Source: a virus. From it: a stretch of DNA of 39,111 nt. The notes beneath the pieces were generated by a model, which was given only the letters and a program-made list of their open reading frames with translations, made no database searches and had not been told where the DNA came from. Of this stretch, positions 10,879 through 30,576 are shown in pieces; positions within the stretch are counted from its first letter, which is position 1; the number at the start of each line of letters is the position of its first letter. The position numbers and the translations under genes are program-made. The stretch spans positions 1 through 39,111 of IMG/VR virus record IMGVR_UViG_3300046008_000380. One strand, written 5' to 3'.

Positions 10879-11232
10879 ATGAAAAAAGAAATACCAAATA
10901 CAGCAGAAACCTATGATACAATGTTAGGTGTTAGAGATACAACTCAGGCTCCCGGTTCTTTGGCAGGTCTTTTGGGTATGGACGATACTGTAAAAGATGA
11001 AAAAGAGGAATGGAAGAAATTATGGCGAGGTATGCCAACTTTTGATAATAAGAAAGTAGTTCCACTTAAAACTCTTACAGTTAATTTTGAATCAGAAGAA
11101 CTTTATAATGAGTTTATTGAGTTGGTTGGTTTTAAAACAGTAACAGCAAAAACTAAATCTATTTGGTTCCCTGAAATTCCACGTGAGGCAAACTCACTAT
11201 TCCGCTTTGTTGATGCTTATGGAGATGAGTAA
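10879..11232 (+). CDS. Phage protein of unknown function with C-terminal KTKSIWFP motif
   Basis: A 117-residue product. The C-terminal 75 residues (WRGMPTFDNKKVVPLKTLTV ... NEFIELVG ... KTKSIWFPEIP) match a domain I recall in phage proteins, where it often accompanies ParB-like or methyltransferase domains; the N-terminus is disordered-looking. GGAG at 10869-10872 favours ATG 10879 over 10876. It overlaps the glycosyltransferase start, so it may act with the modification cassette. No activity is assigned. Confidence 0.65.
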   Translation: MKKEIPNTAETYDTMLGVRDTTQAPGSLAGLLGMDDTVKDEKEEWKKLWRGMPTFDNKKVVPLKTLTVNFESEELYNEFIELVGFKTVTAKTKSIWFPEIPREANSLFRFVDAYGDE

Positions 11233-12152
11233 TGATTGAACAAACAACTCCAAAATATCCTATCTATATCCTGAGCAAGGGTAGATATGAATATTGTCAT
11301 ACAATGAAAGCATTGGATAAGATGGGGCTTAAATATTTTGTTGCTGTTGAACCTCAAGAGTTTGAGAAGTATAAAGCAGCATTAAACCCAGACAATGCAA
11401 CAGTATTAGAACTACCATTTAGTAATCACGGTATGGGTGGTGGTCCTGCTCGTAACTGGATCTGGGAACACTCAGTTGCTCATGGTGCAAAACGTCATTG
11501 GATTTTAGATGACAATATCTCTGAGTTCTGGAGGTATCATAACAACAAACGTTACCGTTGTGAGTCTGGATCAATTTTCAGAGTTACAGAAGACTTTGTT
11601 GACCGCTTTAAAAATGTAATGTTGTCTGGGTTACAATATAAGTTCTTTGTTGTTGATAATTCTGCCGACTATCACCCATTTGTACTTAATACTCGTTTAA
11701 TGTCTTGTATTCTTATTCAGAATGATTGTCCACACAAATGGCGTGGTAAATACAACGAAGACGTAGATTTATCTATTCGAGTACTTAAAGATGGTTATTG
11801 TACTGTTCTTATGTATGCATTCTTGGCAGGTAAGATGGGTACTCAAACTCTCAAAGGTGGTAACACAGAAGAAATCTATGGTGATGGAACTTTTGAGAAA
11901 TCAAAAATGTTAGTTAATCTACACCCAGATGTTGTTGAGTTAAAACAACGATATGGTCGTTGGCATCATCATGCAGACTTATCTGGCTTTAAAGCAAATA
12001 AACTTATTCCAGTAGATAATTACGATGAAATTATCGCTAAATTACCTGAGTCAAATGAATATGGTATGATTTTTGTTAAAGATGCAGGACCAAATCAAAC
12101 AGTAATTAGTCTTAAAGATAAAAACTTTAGTGTTAAGAAGGAAGATGTATGA
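11232..12152 (+). CDS. TET-associated glycosyltransferase-type protein
   Basis: This 306-residue protein matches the TAGT family predicted to transfer sugars to oxidised or hydroxymethylated pyrimidines in phage DNA: YPIYILSKGRYEYCHTMKAL at the N-terminus, then GGGPARNWIWEHSVAHGA and HWILDDNI (the DD-type donor site) near residues 75-100, and KYNEDVDLS around 180. It is followed by three sugar-nucleotide genes, suggesting that the phage makes its own activated sugar. No hydroxymethylating enzyme is in this window, so the acceptor is unknown. Alternatively it could act on another glycan. Confidence 0.7.
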   Translation: MIEQTTPKYPIYILSKGRYEYCHTMKALDKMGLKYFVAVEPQEFEKYKAALNPDNATVLELPFSNHGMGGGPARNWIWEHSVAHGAKRHWILDDNISEFWRYHNNKRYRCESGSIFRVTEDFVDRFKNVMLSGLQYKFFVVDNSADYHPFVLNTRLMSCILIQNDCPHKWRGKYNEDVDLSIRVLKDGYCTVLMYAFLAGKMGTQTLKGGNTEEIYGDGTFEKSKMLVNLHPDVVELKQRYGRWHHHADLSGFKANKLIPVDNYDEIIAKLPESNEYGMIFVKDAGPNQTVISLKDKNFSVKKEDV

Positions 12153-15170: not shown

Positions 15171-15824
15171 ATGAATAAAAAACAAGGTATTGGTGAATTA
15201 GAAGTCAATGAAGAAATCCTTGCCAAAATAACAAACTCAGATTATTTCATTAATGATTCCATTCACTCTGGTTCAGTACATGATATTATTTCTGGTATTA
15301 TTGAGGCTAATGCTGATATTGCTGCAGTCACATTAACTGAGGGTGAATTCTTATATCCAATTCGCATCTTCATCAACTCAGAAGGTGGTAGTCTTTCTGA
15401 TGCATTCTCACTGATTTCAGTAATGAAATCATCAGTTATCCCAATTATTACTATTGCTCTAGGTGATTGTTCATCATCAGCACTTATGATTGCAATGGCA
15501 GGTGATGTTCGGTATGTAAGTAAATACTGCAGCATCTTATCTCATCAATATTCTATGTCTATGGGCATGGCAAAATATGTTGATATTAAGTCTCGTATTA
15601 AAGACAATGACTTAACGGCAAATCGTATTGTAGATCTATACACAGAATGCACAGGTTTGTCTGCCGATGTTGTAAATGAACACCTCTTAAAAGCACATGA
15701 TGTTTTCTTGACGGCAGAGGAAGCATTAACTTATAACCTATTTGATGAATACTTTGAAAACTTCGGTCAAATAGTTCCAATTATCCAATCAACAACACAG
15801 GAAGAAACAGATGAAGATCTCTAA
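15171..15824 (+). CDS. clpP: ClpP-like serine protease
   Basis: A 217-residue ClpP-family protein. IRIFINSEGGSLSDAFSL is the oxyanion/strand region, GDCSSSALMIAMAG holds the nucleophile serine, SHQYS the catalytic histidine, and EEALTYNLFDE the aspartate region. T4-like phages use ClpP-type proteases in head maturation or with host Clp ATPases; which applies here is unknown. It overlaps the clamp gene by 14 bases. Confidence 0.85.
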   Translation: MNKKQGIGELEVNEEILAKITNSDYFINDSIHSGSVHDIISGIIEANADIAAVTLTEGEFLYPIRIFINSEGGSLSDAFSLISVMKSSVIPIITIALGDCSSSALMIAMAGDVRYVSKYCSILSHQYSMSMGMAKYVDIKSRIKDNDLTANRIVDLYTECTGLSADVVNEHLLKAHDVFLTAEEALTYNLFDEYFENFGQIVPIIQSTTQEETDEDL

Positions 15825-25479: not shown

Positions 25480-25554
25480 GGCTCTGTCATATAGTGGCTA
25501 TTATATCCGCCTGTCTAGTGGAATATGAGGGTTCGATTCCCTCCAGAGTCGCCA
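25480..25554 (+). tRNA. tRNA-Asp(GUC)
   Basis: Acceptor GGCTCTG/CAGAGTC, G73, CCA. D-stem ATAT/ATAT with GG in the loop. Anticodon loop CTGTCTA (GUC). T-arm GAGGG-TTCGATT-CCCTC. Canonical elbow. Confidence 0.9.
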
Positions 25555-25558
25555 AGTT

Positions 25559-25624
25559 TTAAACCGTGTTCACCGTGAAATTCGGTCTTAGCCACAACAT
25601 TAGAATGCAGCTTGTGGGGTTTAA
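25559..25624 (+). ncRNA. Y-shaped RNA between tRNA-Asp and tRNA-Tyr
   Basis: TTAAACC (25559-25565) pairs with GGTTTAA (25618-25624). Two inner hairpins are ACCG-TGAAATT-CGGT and CCACAA/TTGTGG (with CATT/AATG inside). The second hairpin abuts the 3' strand of the 7-bp closing stem like a T-arm on an acceptor. It follows the same AAGTTTT linker that separates tRNAs. Confidence 0.55.
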
Positions 25625-25633
25625 TTAGTTTAT

Positions 25634-25718
25634 GCGTTGATATACCGTTAAGGACACGGCCTGGACTGTAAATCCAGTATCTCTGATTGGCTAGGATCGT
25701 TACCTAGGCAACGCACCA
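25634..25718 (+). tRNA. tRNA-Tyr(GUA)
   Basis: Acceptor GCGTTG/CAACGC, A73, CCA. D-loop TTAAGGACA on CCG/CGG. Anticodon loop CTGTAAA (GUA) on CTGGA/TCCAG. Long variable arm. T-arm CTAGG-ATCGTTA-CCTAG, so positions 54-58 are A-U instead of U-A. Confidence 0.88.
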
Positions 25719-25726
25719 AAAGTTTT

Positions 25727-25801
25727 GCCCTTGAAACATAAATGGTGATGTGCCGGTTTTGTAATCCGGAAAATACAGTTCAAGTCTGTACGAGGGCACC
25801 A
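25727..25801 (+). tRNA. tRNA-Thr(UGU)
   Basis: Acceptor GCCCTTG/CGAGGGC, A73, CCA. D-arm ACAT-AAATGGTG-ATGT. Anticodon loop TTTGTAA (UGU). T-arm TACAG-TTCAAGT-CTGTA. Canonical elbow. Confidence 0.9.
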
Positions 25802-25809
25802 AGTTTTAT

Positions 25810-25884
25810 GCGTCTGAAGTGTTGGTGATTACACGCCGTCCTTCCAAGTCGGATTATAGGGTTTGACTCCCTACAGACGCTCCA
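25810..25884 (+). tRNA. tRNA-Gly(UCC)
   Basis: Acceptor GCGTCTG/CAGACGC, U73, CCA. D-arm GTGT-TGGTGATT-ACAC. Anticodon loop CTTCCAA (UCC) with one U-U in the stem. T-arm TAGGG-TTTGACT-CCCTA: base 56 is U, and the D-loop offers G18-A19. Confidence 0.88.
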
Positions 25885-25894
25885 AGTTTTAAAT

Positions 25895-25968
25895 GCTTTG
25901 ATAATTCAATGGTAGAATAATCGACCGATAATCGATAAACACAGGATCGTTACCTGTTCAAAGCACCA
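25895..25968 (+). tRNA. tRNA-Ile(GAU)
   Basis: Acceptor GCTTTGA/TCAAAGC, A73, CCA. D-arm ATTC-AATGGTA-GAAT. Anticodon stem ATCGA/TCGAT around CCGATAA: anticodon GAU but C at position 33 where U is nearly invariant. T-arm ACAGG-ATCGTTA-CCTGT (A54-U58). Confidence 0.85.
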
Positions 25969-25970
25969 AT

Positions 25971-26044
25971 CTCTGATTAGTATAGTGCTAATACTCTTGT
26001 TTTGGGAACAAGGATCGTTGGTTGGATTCCAACATCAGAGACCA
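25971..26044 (+). tRNA. tRNA-Pro(UGG)
   Basis: Acceptor CTCTGAT/ATCAGAG, A73, CCA. D-arm GTAT-AGTGCTA-ATAC. Anticodon loop TTTGGGA (UGG) on CTTGT/ACAAG. T-arm GTTGG-TTGGATT-CCAAC. The elbow pair is C19-G56, the reverse of the usual G19-C56. Confidence 0.88.
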
Positions 26045-26052
26045 AAAGTTAT

Positions 26053-26127
26053 GGGGGCAGCAATGAGTTGCGGAGAACACTTGCAATGTTCTTGTCTAGA
26101 AGAGTTTGATTCTCTCGGCCTCCACCA
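26053..26127 (+). tRNA. tRNA-Ala(UGC)
   Basis: Acceptor GGGGGC/GCCTCC region with one G-U, A73, CCA. D-arm GCA-ATGAGT-TGC. Anticodon loop CTTGCAA (UGC) on GAACA/TGTTC. T-loop TTTGATT: U56 with A19 in the D-loop. Confidence 0.85.
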
Positions 26128-26133
26128 AAGAAA

Positions 26134-26210
26134 CGGTAATGCCCTAGTCGTAAGTGTCTGCAGCGCGAAAAGACAAGTAAGTTAAATTAGCAGATGGGTT
26201 CGCTATGCCG
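26134..26210 (+). ncRNA. Y-shaped RNA after tRNA-Ala
   Basis: CGGTA (26134-26138) closes with TGCCG (26206-26210). Inner hairpins are TGTCT/AGACA (26155-26175) and TAGC-AGATGGGTTC-GCTA (26188-26205), the latter stacked directly on the closing strand. No CCA or anticodon loop. Confidence 0.5.
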
Positions 26211-26283
26211 GGAAGAGAAGTTCTAGATGCCGGGATATCCGGAAAGCTCGGTTACATGTCAGATAGCTGTTCTGACCTCTTCT
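26211..26283 (+). ncRNA. tRNA-like RNA without CCA
   Basis: GGAAGAG (26211-26217) pairs with CTCTTCT (26277-26283). Inner arms are CCGG-GATAT-CCGG and GTCAGA-TAGCTGT-TCTGAC, the second with a 7-nt loop directly before the 3' closing strand, as in a T-arm. The middle loop has only five bases, so no normal anticodon. It ends in AAATTTTT. Confidence 0.5.
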
Positions 26284-26308
26284 AAATTTTTAATGTAGTA
26301 TGTTTTGG

Positions 26309-26395
26309 TCCACAGTAAGCATAACTGGTACTGCACCGCACTGTTAATGCGGCTTCCGAAAGGTCTTGCTGGTTCGAACCCAGCCTGTGGAGCCA
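26309..26395 (+). tRNA. tRNA-Asn(GUU) with an unusually long variable loop
   Basis: Acceptor TCCACAG/CTGTGGA, G73, CCA. D-loop contains CTGG. Anticodon loop CTGTTAA (GUU) on CCGCA/TGCGG. T-arm GCTGG-TTCGAAC-CCAGC. The variable region CTTCCGAAAGGTCTT is 15 nt with a mini-hairpin, where asparagine tRNAs normally have about five. Confidence 0.88.
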
Positions 26396-26416
26396 AAACA
26401 TATTAAGGGAATAATC

Positions 26417-26536
26417 ATGAAAACAAGAAATGAAAATCTTCGTAAGTTACAATTTAGAACAGGTGCTGGTGCTCATGTTAAGAGCAATAAAGCATTACGA
26501 AGAAAGAATAAAGTTGTATTAAGTAAAGAATTATAG
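26417..26536 (+). CDS. Small basic protein within the tRNA array (39 aa)
   Basis: ATG 26417 is preceded by AAGGGA. The product starts MKTRNENLRKLQFRTGAGAH and is rich in Arg and Lys throughout. Similar tiny basic proteins occur in phage tRNA clusters. No fold or function is known; RNA binding is a guess from charge. It lies between tRNA-Asn and tRNA-Lys on the same transcript. Confidence 0.75.
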   Translation: MKTRNENLRKLQFRTGAGAHVKSNKALRRKNKVVLSKEL

Positions 26537-26542
26537 TATTAT

Positions 26543-26618
26543 GGGTTGCTGATGAAATTGGCTATCATATGACGCTTTTAACGTCGCTTTCAGAGTTCGA
26601 ATCTCTGGCAACCTACCA
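26543..26618 (+). tRNA. tRNA-Lys(UUU)
   Basis: Acceptor GGGTTGC/GCAACCT, A73, CCA. D-arm ATGA-AATTGGCTA-TCAT. Anticodon loop CTTTTAA (UUU) on TGACG/CGTCG. T-arm CAGAG-TTCGAAT-CTCTG. Canonical elbow. Lysine tRNA is a frequent target of host anticodon nucleases. Confidence 0.92.
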
Positions 26619-26626
26619 AGTTTTAT

Positions 26627-26701
26627 ATCGCATTAGACATCTGGTGAGGTCAGCAGGCTTTCAACCTGTTCAGAGGGGATCGTAACCCCTATGCGATGCC
26701 A
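26627..26701 (+). tRNA. tRNA-Glu(UUC)
   Basis: Acceptor ATCGCAT/ATGCGAT, G73, CCA. D-arm GAC-ATCTGGTGAG-GTC. Anticodon loop CTTTCAA (UUC). T-arm AGGGG-ATCGTAA-CCCCT (A54-U58). Confidence 0.9.
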
Positions 26702-26728
26702 AGTTTTTGTTACTTTACGTTCTATAAT

Positions 26729-26784
26729 TGTTTCAGCAATTACTGAGTAAAAGTAAATCACTGTGCTATATAGATGCTGAAACA
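26729..26784 (+). ncRNA. Structured RNA with a 10-bp stem
   Basis: TGTTTCAGCA (26729-26738) pairs perfectly with TGCTGAAACA (26775-26784). Inside lies TTACT-GAGTAAA-AGTAA with a 7-nt loop. It occupies the long spacer between tRNA-Glu and a tRNA-like gene. Confidence 0.5.
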
Positions 26785-26800
26785 TCAACACAAGCATAGA

Positions 26801-26868
26801 GGATATTGGTCTACTGGATACGGCGCCTGCGCGGAGCAGGAGAACAAGGTTCGATTCCTTGATATTCG
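26801..26868 (+). tRNA. tRNA-like gene with an abnormal anticodon arm
   Basis: Acceptor GGATATT/GATATTC with G73, a D-loop containing CTGGATA and a normal T-arm CAAGG-TTCGATT-CCTTG. The anticodon stem CCTGC/GCAGG encloses only GCGGA (five bases); even with the last pair open, position 33 would be G. CCA is not encoded, unlike the other tRNAs in the array. It is probably a decoy or degenerate tRNA. Confidence 0.5.
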
Positions 26869-26877
26869 TTGAACAAT

Positions 26878-26953
26878 TGCGGAGATGGGCTAACTAAGCA
26901 AGCCGCCGGCCTCATAAGCCGGAGACGAGGTGCAATTCCTCTGTCCGCTACCA
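26878..26953 (+). tRNA. tRNA-Met-type (CAU) with mismatched 1-72
   Basis: Core acceptor GCGGA/TCCGC with U1-U72 unpaired, A73, CCA. D-arm GGC-TAACTAAGCAA-GCC. Anticodon loop CTCATAA on CCGGC/GCCGG. T-loop TGCAATT: G55 with A18-G19 in the D-loop. A 1-72 mismatch is an initiator hallmark, but it could also be an Ile2-type CAU tRNA. Confidence 0.8.
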
Positions 26954-26961
26954 AGTTTTGA

Positions 26962-27069
26962 GTGCTCAAGAAAAGCTTAATTATACTTTAGCGAGTATAG
27001 CTCAAATTAAGTTTTGGGAAAGTCCGTACTTTATATATTCTAGTGCAAGGAGAGACGGACAGCACACCA
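26962..27069 (+). ncRNA. Y-shaped RNA ending in ACCA
   Basis: GTGCT (26962-26966) closes with AGCAC (27061-27065), followed by ACCA. Arm one is CTTAATT/AATTAAG enclosing ATACT-TTAGCG-AGTAT; arm two is GTCCGT/ACGGAC (27022-27060), which stacks directly on the acceptor-like strand. No anticodon arm. The encoded CCA suggests a tRNA-like 3' end. Confidence 0.55.
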
Positions 27070-27079
27070 ATTTTACAAT

Positions 27080-27156
27080 GGCCGCGAGATGCAACGAGAC
27101 GCATATCACCCTTTGACGGTGAGTTTTAATAGGTGCAAATCCTATAGCGGCTGCCA
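27080..27156 (+). tRNA. tRNA-Gln(UUG)
   Basis: Acceptor GGCCGC/GCGGCT, G73, CCA. D-arm ATGC-AACGAGAC-GCAT with no GG. Anticodon loop CTTTGAC (UUG) on TCACC/GGTGA. T-arm ATAGG-TGCAAAT-CCTAT: G55, matched by A18-G19. Confidence 0.88.
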
Positions 27157-27158
27157 GT

Positions 27159-27231
27159 TTTAATAGAGGGACGCTTCGGCGTAAGAGTGCCCTTAATATC
27201 CACGTCGCGTATCAAACGTGAGTCTATTAAA
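27159..27231 (+). ncRNA. Y-shaped RNA between tRNA-Gln and tRNA-Ser
   Basis: TTTAATAGA (27159-27167) pairs perfectly with TCTATTAAA (27223-27231). Arm one is GGG/CCC enclosing ACGC-TTCG-GCGT, a UUCG-capped hairpin; arm two is CACGT/ACGTG (27201-27220). No CCA or anticodon. Confidence 0.6.
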
Positions 27232-27239
27232 TTCAATAC

Positions 27240-27328
27240 GGAAGATGAACTTATCGGGTGATAAGCGCTGTTTGCTAAACAGTTGAGACTCGCAAGGGTC
27301 TTGGGGTCGGTACCTACTTCTTCCGCCA
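27240..27328 (+). tRNA. tRNA-Ser(GCU)
   Basis: Acceptor GGAAGA/TCTTCC, G73, CCA. D-arm CTTAT-CGGGTG-ATAAG. Anticodon loop TTGCTAA (GCU) on GCTGT/ACAGT. Long variable arm AGACTCGCAAGGGTCT. The T-arm is weak, reading about TTGGG-GTCGGTA-CCTAC. Confidence 0.82.
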
Positions 27329-27440
27329 GAATGCATCCGCAACTTCAGCGGTCTTGAAGAGGTGATTTTACCGGGACCATACACGGTGATGAGGTTTTGG
27401 AAGCGACCTCGGAGAGTCTAATTAACTCAGCTGACACATT
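27329..27440 (+). ncRNA. Multi-hairpin RNA before tRNA-Phe
   Basis: Four hairpins in a row: CCGC-AACTTCA-GCGG (27337-27351), ACCG/CGGT (27370-27387), GAGGT/ACCTC (27391-27410) and GAGT-CTAATTA-ACTC (27414-27428). Two have 7-nt loops. A short AATG/CATT pair could close the whole. No CCA or reading frame. Confidence 0.45.
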
Positions 27441-27515
27441 GCTTCTTTGAGTCAGATAGATGACTAGCGGTCTGAAGAGCCGACGAGGATGGTGCGATAC
27501 CATCAGGAAGCACCA
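27441..27515 (+). tRNA. tRNA-Phe(GAA)
   Basis: Acceptor GCTTCTT/AGGAAGC, A73, CCA. D-arm AGTC-AGATAGAT-GACT with no GG. Anticodon loop CTGAAGA (GAA). T-arm GATGG-TGCGATA-CCATC: G55, matched by A18-G19. Its CCA end takes part in the stem of the following structured RNA. Confidence 0.88.
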
Positions 27516-27585
27516 CATTAAAATACACTGTGTATTCGATACAGGACTTGATTCTGATGTCCCATAGCAGTGTATTTTAATGTGG
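27513..27585 (+). ncRNA. Y-shaped RNA with an 18-bp stem joining tRNA-Phe and tRNA-His
   Basis: CCACATTAAAATACACTG (27513-27530) is perfectly complementary to 27568-27585. The head holds TGTAT-TCG-ATACA and GGAC/GTCC hairpins. The stem includes the last bases (CCA) of tRNA-Phe and the first four (GTGG) of tRNA-His, so it should influence how both ends are processed. Confidence 0.65.
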
Positions 27586-27659
27586 CCATATCATAAAAGT
27601 AATGACCTAGGCTGTGAACCTAGTTAAGAGGGAGCATTACCCTCTGGTCACCCCAAGTA
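27582..27659 (+). tRNA. tRNA-His(GUG) lacking G-1
   Basis: Acceptor GTGGCCA/TGGTCAC, C73, CCA. D-arm TCAT-AAAAGTA-ATGA with no GG. Anticodon loop CTGTGAA (GUG) on CTAGG/CCTAG. T-arm GAGGG-AGCATTA-CCCTC: A54, G55, C56, U58. The base before position 1 is U, not the G-1 that histidyl-tRNA synthetases usually require. End placed at the CCA near 27655. Confidence 0.82.
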
Positions 27660-27669
27660 AGGAGTTATT

Positions 27670-27846
27670 ATGAATTTTAGAATTATCTCAGAAAAATTAA
27701 AGAGTAAATATGAATGCGATGCAATCTACTTTGATTTTATTGAACTTGAAGATAAGGTAATAATTCATAAAGTATTTTATAGAGATAATACAAGAGTTCT
27801 AATGCAACCTACATCATATAGTTACGAGGAATTAATTTCATTATGA
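27670..27846 (+). CDS. Small protein of unknown function (58 aa)
   Basis: ATG 27670 follows GGAG at 27661-27664. The product (MNFRIISEKLKSKYECDAIY ... VIIHKVFYRDNTR) looks like a compact alpha-beta protein with no known motif. Its stop overlaps the next start (ATGA), so the two small genes inside the tRNA array are coupled. Confidence 0.7.
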   Translation: MNFRIISEKLKSKYECDAIYFDFIELEDKVIIHKVFYRDNTRVLMQPTSYSYEELISL

Positions 27847-28019
27847 AGCAAGTCCCTCAATGGGTAAAAGATAGAGAAGCATTAGCACAACCACATGAAG
27901 AAGTTACTTTTGTGGGTGAAATGGGTGTTGATGCAGTTGTAGATGGTAAATTACCAAATGGCGAGCCTTATGTCTATCACAGACAAGATAAGAAATCCAG
28001 AGGTAGAAGAAGTAGATAA
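27843..28019 (+). CDS. Small protein of unknown function (58 aa)
   Basis: Coupled to the preceding gene by ATGA. It begins MKQVPQWVKDREALAQPHEE, has a central strand region (VTFVGEMGVDAVVDGKLPNG) and ends in a strongly basic tail (KKSRGRRSR), which could bind RNA or DNA. No family was recognised. It ends just before a Met-type tRNA. Confidence 0.7.
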   Translation: MKQVPQWVKDREALAQPHEEVTFVGEMGVDAVVDGKLPNGEPYVYHRQDKKSRGRRSR

Positions 28020-28021
28020 TT

Positions 28022-28097
28022 CGTGATAGATGCTTTATAGTACGCAGATAGTTTCATAAACTGTTGAAATATGGTGCGAGTCCATATATCACGACCA
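28022..28097 (+). tRNA. tRNA-Met-type (CAU), second copy
   Basis: Acceptor CGTGATA/TATCACG, A73, CCA. D-arm TGC-TTTATAGTAC-GCA with no GG. Anticodon loop TTCATAA (CAU) on ATAGT/ACTGT. T-arm TATGG-TGCGAGT-CCATA: G55 with A18-G19. It may be elongator Met or Ile2. Confidence 0.85.
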
Positions 28098-28105
28098 GTA
28101 TAAAC

Positions 28106-28188
28106 GGGGATGTGGTGAAATTGGCAAACACATCTGATTTAAGCTCAGACGCTTCGGCTTGAGAGTTCGACCCTCTCCTTCCCCACCA
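28106..28188 (+). tRNA. tRNA-Leu(UAA)
   Basis: Acceptor GGGGATG/CTTCCCC with one mismatch, A73, CCA. D-arm GTG-AAATTGGCAAA-CAC. Anticodon loop TTTAAGC (UAA) on TCTGA/TCAGA. Variable arm CGCTTCGGCTT. T-arm GAGAG-TTCGACC-CTCTC. Canonical elbow. Confidence 0.9.
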
Positions 28189-28196
28189 AAAATAAT

Positions 28197-28270
28197 GCCT
28201 TTATAGTATAATGTTATTACAGTTCATTGGTACTGAACAAATTGAGGTTAGATTCCTCATTTAGGCACCA
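28197..28270 (+). tRNA. tRNA-Thr(GGU)
   Basis: Acceptor GCCTTTA/TTTAGGC with two U-U mismatches, A73, CCA. D-arm GTA-TAATGTTAT-TAC. Anticodon loop TTGGTAC (GGU) on GTTCA/TGAAC. T-arm TGAGG-TTAGATT-CCTCA. The elbow pair is U19-A56 in place of G19-C56. Confidence 0.85.
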
Positions 28271-28276
28271 AACAAT

Positions 28277-28351
28277 GAGTTATTAGTGTAATGGTTAGCA
28301 CACGGCACTCCAAACGCCTTAGAGAGGGTTCGATTCCTTCATTTCTCGCCA
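28277..28351 (+). tRNA. tRNA-Trp(CCA)
   Basis: Acceptor GAGTTAT/ATTTCTC with two U-U mismatches, G73, CCA. D-arm GTGT-AATGGTTA-GCAC. Anticodon loop CTCCAAA (CCA) on a partly paired stem. T-arm GAGGG-TTCGATT-CCTTC. Canonical elbow. Confidence 0.85.
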
Positions 28352-28357
28352 ATCAAT

Positions 28358-28431
28358 GCCCGATTAAGTAAATGGTATACTGCTCTCCTTACAAGTGAGA
28401 CTCGGCGGATCGTAACCGTCATCGGGTACCA
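28358..28431 (+). tRNA. tRNA-Val(UAC)
   Basis: Acceptor GCCCGAT/ATCGGGT, A73, CCA. D-arm AGTA-AATGGTA-TACT. Anticodon loop CTTACAA (UAC) with one U-U in the stem. T-arm GGCGG-ATCGTAA-CCGTC (A54-U58). Confidence 0.88.
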
Positions 28432-29252: not shown

Positions 29253-29334
29253 GCGGCTGTATCTCACGGAGCTTCTACCTCCGCGTTAACCGAGTAATTG
29301 GAGTATGGGAGTTCGAGTCTCTCCAGCCGCGCCA
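29253..29334 (+). tRNA. tRNA-Arg(UCU)-like with a reduced D-arm
   Basis: Acceptor GCGGCTG/CAGCCGC, G73, CCA, and T-arm GGGAG-TTCGAGT-CTCTC are clear. A perfect CGGAG-CTTCTAC-CTCCG hairpin gives anticodon UCU. This leaves only seven bases (TATCTCA) for the D-arm and 23 for the variable region, so the molecule is not a standard cloverleaf. An alternative fold was tried without success. Confidence 0.55.
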
Positions 29335-29373
29335 GAATTGTTGTAGAAGCACTAAAGTAATACATGTTGGACG

Positions 29374-29394
29374 GCGGTTCGATTCCGCCCATTT
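29374..29394 (+). pseudogene. Truncated tmRNA/tRNA T-arm upstream of the HNH gene
   Basis: GACGGCGG-TTCGATT-CCGCCCA forms a normal T-arm, preceded by GTTG as at the 3' end of many tmRNAs, but stops without the acceptor strand or CCA. The same GACGGCGG and CCGCCCA reappear after the HNH gene (29914-29935) with a different loop. It is probably a relic left by the HNH insertion. Confidence 0.55.
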
Positions 29395-29407: not shown

Positions 29408-29893
29408 ATGCATATACATCACATTATACCAAAACACATGGGTGGAACAGATGATCCATCTAATTTAATAGAACTCACAATAGAAGAACATGCAGAGGCT
29501 CATCGGTTGCTATTTGAGCAACACGGTCAATGGGAAGATGAAATAGCTTGGAAAGGTCTTTCTGGTATGATTTCTAAAGAAGAAATTATATTTAGGACTC
29601 AAAGTGAGTCATCTAAAGAAGTTTTAAAAAGAAATGGTAATCCTTGGTCAGGTAAAAGAACAAAAACAAATTTAGCAATAAATGAGCAACAGAGATTAGA
29701 TATGTCAGAAAAGTCAAAATCTCCAGAAGCTATAGAGAAAAGAAAAGAATCATTTAAGAAAATTGGTCACCAACAAGGAGAGAAAAATTCTCAATTTGGT
29801 AAATTTTGGATAACCAATGAACACGAAAGTAAAATGATTTTTAAAACCGATAGTATTCCTGTTGGTTGGAGAAAAGGTAGAAGAATTCGTTGA
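29408..29893 (+). CDS. HNH homing endonuclease inserted in the tmRNA locus
   Basis: A 161-residue protein that opens at once with the HNH core: MHIHHIIPKHMGGTDDPSNL and EEHAEAHRLLFEQHGQW. Other phage HNH proteins I recall start the same way, supporting ATG 29408. The rest is basic with NUMOD-like repeats (SKSPEAIEKRKESFKKIG) and ends VGWRKGRRIR. It lies between a truncated T-arm and the complete tmRNA acceptor half, so the tmRNA gene was its homing site. Confidence 0.85.
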   Translation: MHIHHIIPKHMGGTDDPSNLIELTIEEHAEAHRLLFEQHGQWEDEIAWKGLSGMISKEEIIFRTQSESSKEVLKRNGNPWSGKRTKTNLAINEQQRLDMSEKSKSPEAIEKRKESFKKIGHQQGEKNSQFGKFWITNEHESKMIFKTDSIPVGWRKGRRIR

Positions 29894-29944
29894 AGGTGTG
29901 AGTAAGAGGTCAAGACGGCGGAGCATTACCGCCCAGGTCCACCA

Positions 29945-29976
29945 TAAAACATATTTTAATTAGTATGTTTTATCAT
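29945..29976 (+). other. Intervening hairpin of the permuted tmRNA
   Basis: TAAAACATA (29945-29953) pairs perfectly with TATGTTTTA (29964-29972). It links the CCA end to the mature 5' end and should be cut out during maturation, as in known permuted tmRNAs. Confidence 0.8.
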
Positions 29977-30053
29977 GGGCCTGAATAGATTCGATTGGCG
30001 TTGGATGGTCACCTGAGGATAGACAAGAAAGTCTTAAAAATCAAAAATTAAAT

Positions 30054-30092
30054 GCAAACGATAGCGTTTATACTATTGCTCTAGCAGCTTAG
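30054..30092 (+). other. tmRNA tag reading frame
   Basis: GCA AAC GAT and so on give ANDSVYTIALAA, then TAG. The AND start and LAA end match bacterial proteolysis tags; E. coli has ANDENYALAA. Confidence 0.88.
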
Positions 30093-30186
30093 TCGGGGTC
30101 CGCCGGTTCCTTGTTATCAAATACCGGCAATTAACTTCAATAGGAGATTATTATGCGATCGTAAATTACAACACGGAGCAATAATA

Positions 30187-30576
30187 ATGTCAAGAACATA
30201 CAGAAAGAAATGTCCTTATGGTAGAGGTTGGGACACACTCGAATATCGTCTAGAAGATAGTGGCTTTACTTTAGATGAAGCACTTAAAATAGAAGGTGTT
30301 GAGAGTATTCACCTATCCCCTTACGGATCTCATTACAGAATGTTGTATGAGGTTCGCTACTCAAGAACATCTAAAAAAGGCAAGGAACTAATTGCACGTT
30401 GGCACTCTGATGCCGGTGTGTGTAGTTTTAAAGAGCCCGGACCTATGTGGTTTGTTAGAGAGTTCACTCAAGCACCCTACAGAGCAAGATGTAAGCAAGA
30501 GATTCACAAATATTACAAAGATGAAGATTATGAAGTTATCATTGAAGATATGCCTCACTTAGATTATTGGACTTAG
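30187..30576 (+). CDS. Phage protein of unknown function (129 aa)
   Basis: Begins MSRTYRKKCPYGRGWDTLEY and is strongly basic, with GSHYRMLYEVRYSRTSKKGK and ARCKQEIHKYYKDEDY. Tight beta-rich composition and basic patches suggest nucleic-acid binding, though no known domain was recognised. CGGAG precedes the ATG. It is the first protein gene after the tmRNA. Confidence 0.7.
   Translation: MSRTYRKKCPYGRGWDTLEYRLEDSGFTLDEALKIEGVESIHLSPYGSHYRMLYEVRYSRTSKKGKELIARWHSDAGVCSFKEPGPMWFVREFTQAPYRARCKQEIHKYYKDEDYEVIIEDMPHLDYWT

Follow-up and report, generated by a model that had tools for sequence, protein, structure and literature searches.

A phage-encoded permuted tmRNA with a matched non-standard elbow and a displaced acceptor half at an endonuclease gene

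Introduction

Two-piece tmRNAs are already known from phages. According to the accessible part of the paper on Methylophilales phage Melnitz, a T4-type marine phage whose ssrA encodes a two-piece tmRNA, ARAGORN found 53 two-piece structures among 133 phage tmRNA structures, 50 of these 53 being marine or aquatic, and a glutamine riboswitch adjoins the Melnitz ssrA (PMC9004378). The tmRNA database paper, in the portion available, lists 79 phage tmRNAs and is the source of family RF04321 (PMC11915505), in which alpha, beta and cyanobacterial permuted tmRNAs are merged. Since the two-piece tmRNAs of Melnitz and of Sphingobium phage Lacusarx as well as the 53 phage structures have been published, as far as the available text of these sources goes, a phage permuted tmRNA is not new in itself (PMC9004378, PMC11915505, PMC5648845). 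The gene described here lies in an IMG/VR virus record of 39,111 bases, which over its full length is called the window.

Few sequences in biology are as conserved as the T-loop; that of the window tmRNA reads AGCAUUA compared with the standard UUCRANY, combined with A18 in the D-loop compared with the standard G18. The accessible part of a review describes T-loop conservation as a hallmark of tRNAs in all three domains (PMC7912444). RF04321 shares with the window gene the order of the halves, the acceptor stem, and the AND start and AA end of the tag, whereas its consensus T-loop is UUCGAUU. The Melnitz ssrA has the same G55/A18 elbow (GGCAGTA with AACTAGGTTCGA), but it differs in having G54.G58 instead of A54.U58 and is alpha-type. 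The ssrA of Lacusarx resembles the window gene in its AGCGTTA T-loop, in A18 and in the overlap of the tmRNA with the 3' end of an endonuclease gene. However, the host of Lacusarx is alphaproteobacterial, as stated in the accessible text (PMC5648845), no displaced half was found upstream of its tmRNA, and the scanned tRNAs have TTC in all 16 cases. By eye, the DNA of its annotated HNH endonuclease (L446:2495-3040) reads LAGFLDGEG, which is LAGLIDADG-like. Target-restoring genomic islands, going by the available part of the Islander paper, likewise combine a displaced target fragment with a regenerated gene, but no integrase was seen beside the window gene, the endonuclease is of the HNH type within a phage genome, and the replacement concerns the first half of a permuted gene (PMC4383910). 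Three findings extend the sequence-only reading of the window: the compensated elbow, the tRNAs with similar exchanges, and the displaced half at an endonuclease gene.

Results

The phage record

The record carries the T4-type genes gp32, gp45 clamp, RNase H, baseplate, ribonucleotide reductase, DNA ligase and PhoH, and since it has only 39,111 bases for a T4-type phage, it is a fragment. Its DNA ligase is nearest to that of Stenotrophomonas phages (40%). A ClpP-like peptidase (15171-15824; Pfam Clp protease, 2.3e-18) is encoded outside the head genes, with a head maturation protease as best PHROG; in an alignment judged by eye, its ClpP positions are occupied by Ser, His and Asp. The same phage has both a tmRNA and a ClpP-like protein. 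The gene at 11232-12152 belongs to the TET-associated glycosyltransferase family (Pfam TAGT) and adjoins nucleotide-sugar genes, so that DNA base glucosylation is possible.

Identity and anatomy of the tmRNA gene

When the whole window was compared with 4227 families by cmscan, the Infernal search that had been suggested with the permuted tmRNA models, the locus matched RF04321 (tmRNA_permuted) with 91.4 bits against a cut-off of 47 (E 1.6e-16). RF01850 (beta_tmRNA), which also covers the hairpin after the tag, reached 66.8 bits, under its cut-off of 84, and is the best of its clan without the locus being filed as a member. Together with the T4-type nature of the record, this bears out the claim of the sequence-only reading that a phage encodes a circularly permuted tmRNA. 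The features are compiled in Table 1.

Table 1. Positions of the tmRNA gene, its parts and the neighbouring features in the window
Feature	Position	Strand	Basis
tRNA array with compensated elbow variants	25480..28431	+	ARAGORN, Rfam, own cloverleaf scan
tRNA-His(GTG), elbow class as in the tmRNA (AGCATTA T-loop, AAAAGTA D-loop)	27582..27654	+	own cloverleaf scan
Truncated older acceptor half, canonical T-loop TTCGATT	29335..29391	+	48/55 aligned bases as in the L113 tmRNA half
HNH homing-type endonuclease, 161 aa from in-frame ATG	29408..29893	+	Pfam HNH, PHROG homing endonuclease, translation
Permuted tmRNA gene	29882..30092	+	RF04321 match
Acceptor (tRNA-like 3') half, ends ACCA, T-loop AGCAUUA	29882..29944	+	sequence; 48/53 bases as in L127 over 29883-29935
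T-arm GGCGG-AGCATTA-CCGCC	29917-29933	+	sequence
Non-canonical T-loop A54 G55 C56 A57 U58 U59 A60	29922..29928	+	numbering by homology
Acceptor 3' strand CAGGTCC	29934-29940	+	sequence
ACCA end of acceptor half	29941-29944	+	sequence
Linker, 32 bases, 12-pair hairpin joining the acceptor strands	29945..29976	+	minimum-energy fold; excision presumed
Acceptor 5' strand GGGCCTG, partner of 29934-29940, G3.U70 kept	29977..29983	+	sequence, alignment
D-loop AATAGATTCGA, A18 = 29987, G19 = 29988	29984..29994	+	sequence, loop covariation
Tag reading frame ANDSVYTIALAA and stop TAG	30054..30092	+	translation
Hairpin 3' of the tag, loop TCCTTGTTATCAAAT near beta_tmRNA consensus	30102..30128	+	beta_tmRNA alignment

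The order of the halves is that of a permuted tmRNA: the CCA-ending acceptor half precedes the tag half with a hairpin linker in between, each element lying where the sequence-only reading had placed it. Its statement that the acceptor strands GGGCCTG and CAGGTCC pair fully is right in that 7/7 positions pair, but one of these pairs is a G.U, namely G3.U70, which we take to be the alanine identity pair. The tag had been read as ending in LAA, and indeed the codons GCA AAC GAT AGC GTT TAT ACT ATT GCT CTA GCA GCT TAG form an open frame with the conserved start GCAAACGAT, a stop and a hydrophobic AA end. The terminal ALAA is like that of tags for Clp proteases, and 85 of 87 viral tags of the permuted-tmRNA kind end in AA. 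The gene start has to be corrected, since the model match begins at 29882 and the earlier position, 29891, falls within the stop codon that ends the endonuclease ORF upstream. That reading had passed over the non-standard T-loop as well as the second, truncated acceptor half. The loop motif of the hairpin 3' of the tag is found again in the viral loci L127 and L113. By the RF04321 model, the tRNA-like domain has a weak P2, and the T-loop departs from UUCRANY, a feature that is common among permuted tmRNAs and does not define them. ARAGORN called the tmRNA neither in the window nor in L127, L165 and L176.

The fold of the locus has a z-score of -4.19, none of 200 shuffles being equally stable, and the minimum-energy fold contains the linker hairpin, the acceptor stem and the T-arm. 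In an alignment of six related sequences, 72/72 cells of the acceptor and T-stem are paired, compared with at most 58.3% in slid controls, and 5/12 pairs show two-sided changes. The acceptor stem has seven pairs, and at the G3.U70 pair all six aligned sequences have U-G. An exact search of the viral contigs with the T-arm gave no match, Blast of the tmRNA against named phages gave chance-level matches only, the number of sigma-70-like sites around the gene does not exceed chance, and no relatives were found for the downstream gene 30187-30576. That the window gene is a real permuted tmRNA is practically certain, and that it works is highly probable.

Covariation of T-loop and D-loop in tmRNAs

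A set of 88 distinct viral permuted tmRNAs was collected by the tag, and therefore blind to both loops; 26 further matches (non-tmRNA matches, cut contigs and odd D-loops) were left out. Positions 18-19 were read two or three bases ahead of TCGA (TAGA in L088), i.e., two registers were allowed. G55 is found in 68/88 and U55 in 20/88 of these tmRNAs. At one of the two registers the D-loop has AG in 68/68 G55 tmRNAs and GG in 20/20 U55 ones, the alternative dinucleotide being also possible in 4/68 and 3/20, respectively. In viral permuted tmRNAs the pair 18-55 is G-U or A-G, and 54.58 is U.A, G.G or A.U. The elbow of the window tmRNA is compensated, with A18-G55 for G18-U55 and A54.U58 for U54.A58, the covariation being observed and the geometry presumed. 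Because the T-loop class and the D-loop dinucleotide covary in the 88 viral tmRNAs, this is a compensated elbow and not decay.

When only the T-arm was used for scanning, 91 viral stretches were obtained in which AGCRTTA precedes TCCACCA. AG is present in the D-loop of all ten distinct viral permuted tmRNAs of the AGC type, most of which were found via the T-arm alone; the register of L443 is ambiguous. The ten are the window, L127, L165 (the same as L176), L183, L373 with its copies, L412, L417 (the same as Lacusarx), L431, L443 and L150, the last of which comes from a search other than the T-arm-only scan. L113 forms a near-minimal pair with the window, as it has the same acceptor stem and T-stem and 87/107 bases of the coding half, but TTCGATT together with GG.

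In GTDB, a pattern with A, G or T at 54 and G at 55 matches at least 117 loci, mostly of Alphaproteobacteria. Among the matches listed, 96 have a permuted D-loop resolved by script, all with AG, 8 look standard and 13 were not resolved; A54 occurs in 0/117 of the matches listed. Compared with these listed matches, A54.U58 in a tmRNA is seen in viral records only, the isolate Lacusarx included. Since the G55 loci of GTDB are mostly alphaproteobacterial permuted tmRNAs with AG, G55/A18 is ordinary in alphaproteobacterial tmRNA and is ruled out as a phage-only trait. U55 is absent from the alphaproteobacterial permuted-tmRNA matches as well, as it is from 68/88 of the viral ones. Steinberg and colleagues reportedly obtained active suppressor tRNAs with G54-G58 pairs by in vivo selections. 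A literature search, with subscription journals mostly outside it, found no description of elbow covariation in phage tRNAs or tmRNAs in the text accessible there.

Elbow variants in tRNAs

A cloverleaf scan in which the bases of the D- and T-loops play no role detects 16 tRNAs between 25480 and 31444 of the window. In 16/16 the D-loop dinucleotide is the one predicted from the T-loop: G18 with U55, A18 with G55, and at position 19 the Watson-Crick partner of 56. A18-G55 is present in Met 26878, Gln 27080, His 27582 and Met 28022, and the 19-56 variants are C19-G56 in Pro 25971, U19-A56 in Thr 28197 and A19-U56 in Gly 25810. A54.U58 with normal G18-U55 is found in Tyr 25634, Glu 26627, Val 28358 and Ile 25895, the Ile loops coming from a separate reading. 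By eye, Ala(TGC) near 26055 (GA, TTTGATT) and Phe(GAA) near 27446 (AG, TGCGATA) also fit the elbow rule. Four tRNAs with non-canonical T-loops (Tyr 25634-25717, Gln 27080-27155, His 27582-27654 and Met 28022-28096) are listed neither by ARAGORN nor at the Rfam cut-off. Because ARAGORN misses four tmRNAs, and ARAGORN and the Rfam cut-off miss these four window tRNAs, counts of phage tRNAs and tmRNAs are probably too low.

The survey was widened to 327 viral loci (2.80 Mb), which gave 605 distinct cloverleafs and 0 hits in reversed sequences. This sample is biased, 206/327 loci having been fetched by T-arm patterns with A54-G55, and its related sequences are not independent events. Sorted by T-loop positions 55-56, the UC class (374) has GG in 365 D-loops, GC (195) has AG in 192 and CC (8) has GG in 8; among the rarer classes UU (20) has GA in 20, UA (4) GU in 4, GA (2) AU in 2 and UG (2) GC in 2. 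Compensated exchanges at 18-55 and 19-56 are thus common to the window tRNAs and the 605 viral cloverleafs. GG can be found in 27/195 GC-class D-loops and in 0/28 of the rarer ones. In seven-base D-loops, where the position is fixed, GG occurs in 55/56 of the UC class, AG in 44/46 of GC and GA in 3/3 of UU. All 28 rare cloverleafs fit; when other D-loops were drawn for them 5000 times, 13.0 fitted on average and never more than 23. The elbow-blind subset comprises only 120 loci with 30 tRNAs, 26 of them U55C56 and 4 G55C56. In a pooled shuffle test, which is weak for such small subsets, the tag-fetched set scores 29/30 with a shuffle maximum of 29, and the non-UC tRNAs of the tag-fetched set plus the window score 6/7 with a shuffle maximum of 6. 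Position 60 goes along with 54.58, as A.U and G.G mostly occur with A60 (ATA 82, GGA 52) and U.A with U60 or C60 (376 and 48, respectively). In the 605 viral cloverleafs, A54.U58 is no obvious isostere of U54.A58.

Among the isolates, the tRNAs of T4 (6/6) and Comrade (3/3) are canonical with TTC, as are 14/15 of Pseudomonas phage 254, which has one G56 with GC; Lacusarx has a TTC T-loop in 16/16 scanned tRNAs and a GG D-loop in 15. The idea that odd tRNAs occur in every phage with such a tmRNA is ruled out by the TTC T-loops of Lacusarx, T4 and Comrade; L057 combines odd tRNAs with a canonical tmRNA. Canonical and variant tRNAs occur together in 56/107 viral contigs with tRNAs, which speaks for a change RNA by RNA and not for a phage-wide code. 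The tRNA arrays of L057, L149, L159, L161, L397, L416 and L424 have several elbow classes per contig. L360:530-604 and L403:3340-3416 show a short acceptor, a D-loop and a T-arm, about 50 bases apart, with AGCGTTA and A18, and look like TLD-only tmRNAs without tag.

A displaced acceptor half at the endonuclease gene

Upstream of the tmRNA the order is a second, truncated acceptor half (the stump), the HNH gene and then the intact acceptor half. The stump reads GAATTGTTG...GTTGGAC GGCGG TTCGATT CCGCC CA and breaks off after CCGCCCA, two bases into the acceptor strand, so that the remaining strand and CCA are missing. The endonuclease has the HNH domain of homing endonucleases and relatives in 512 phage records, and its stop (29893) overlaps the intact tmRNA half. 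DNA relatives of its gene begin at 29391 (L127, 79% over 117 bases), i.e., the homology starts exactly where the stump ends, as in a split target, in this one contig only. By eye, a tRNA-like sequence (29253-29334; acceptor GCGGCTG/CAGCCGC, canonical T-arm) lies directly before the displaced half, apparently with no D-arm and with a long variable region.

The D-loop of the window tmRNA, GAATAGATTCGATTG, has the L127 form; the L113 form is found in the acceptor stem and in the greater part of the tag half. L127 has a related endonuclease about 1.9 kb upstream of its own tmRNA; since its acceptor stem is GGGGATG/CATCTCC and not GGGCCTG, L127 is not the donor itself. In 104 tmRNA candidates, 89 of them with at least 700 nt upstream and a few of them false (at least two, e.g., L212 and L424), a stump was found in the window only, and the exact junction of old half and endonuclease gene was found nowhere else in the viral contigs; the insertion history therefore rests on one contig. 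For the related endonucleases of S-SKS1 and S-SRM01 no tRNA or tmRNA is annotated in the 3 kb examined, so that a specificity for tmRNA is at most putative.

Discussion

The overall picture that explains the data best, and which we consider likely, is a phage-encoded working permuted tmRNA with a matched non-standard elbow and an endonuclease-borne replacement of one half. By analogy with the family, cleavage of the transcript at both acceptor ends would give two pieces, one with the acceptor and one with the tag, which remain paired, and the RNA would be charged with alanine through G3.U70. It would then use SmpB, presumably that of the host, engage ribosomes that have stalled on broken mRNA and append ANDSVYTIALAA; this would mark the product for Clp-type proteases and free the ribosome, and the phage might benefit during mRNA breakdown. 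No SmpB gene was found in the 39 kb record, which is a fragment. Ribosome release together with tagging is the natural reading of the role of the phage tmRNA. The Lacusarx authors, in the available part of their paper, propose a role counteracting host tmRNA tagging (PMC5648845), and TLD-only phage forms are able to inhibit tmRNA according to the accessible text of two sources (PMC4131195, PMC11915505). The window tmRNA could thus be a decoy that mainly competes for SmpB or ribosomes and blunts host tagging, which we regard as quite improbable, as the tag frame, the resume region and the LAA end are intact and kept in viral relatives, and a decoy would have no use for them. If the gene were a host tmRNA that the phage acquired and that is now decaying, the non-canonical T-loop, the weak P2 and the missing ARAGORN call would fit, but this is hardly credible given the compensated T- and D-loop, the retained G3.U70, the fully paired stems with two-sided changes and the open tag.

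As to the stump, an insertion by the endonuclease together with a donor half probably accounts for it, judging from the chimeric sequence. The gene of the HNH homing endonuclease would have entered an older tmRNA gene of canonical type, whose first half remained as the stump, and an acceptor half of another lineage would have been co-converted with the matching D-loop from an L127-like relative. Both sides of the tertiary contact would thereby have been exchanged at once, and the gene would work again. It is also conceivable, although unlikely, that the acceptor half was duplicated in tandem, that the endonuclease later came between the copies and that the downstream copy and the D-loop drifted to the new elbow. 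Both halves begin with GAATT and have GACGGCGG...CCGCCCA in common, as a duplication would predict; however, the halves are nearer to separate lineages (48/55 for the stump and L113, 48/53 for the intact half and L127) than to each other (40/50), and the D-loop, too, is of the L127 form. The record was assembled from a metagenome (IMG/VR) and the two halves are of different lineages, so that the stump might be an artefact in which two strains were joined, but this is very improbable, because the copies have a stretch of just about 20 bases in common and are separated by a unique gene.

If an endonuclease-borne exchange indeed took place, the displaced half points to a plausible one-step route for swapping both sides of a tertiary contact and gives a hint at phage RNA reshuffling. 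A bolder reading, which we regard as possible but less likely than not, is that phages re-code the universal tRNA elbow, in that 18-55 (G-U/A-G), 19-56 (G-C/C-G/A-U/U-A) and 54.58 (U.A/G.G/A.U) shift jointly, RNA by RNA, in viral tRNAs and tmRNAs, and that mobile endonucleases can carry a matched T- and D-loop together, whereby the fold survives the exchange of half a gene. For each elbow contact, double mutants occur naturally in the tRNAs and tmRNAs of the window and its relatives, which makes elbow requirements testable with natural parts. If the proposal is true, RNAs without U54, U55 or G18 would be beyond TrmA, TruB and TrmH as well as beyond host and phage factors that read the standard elbow.
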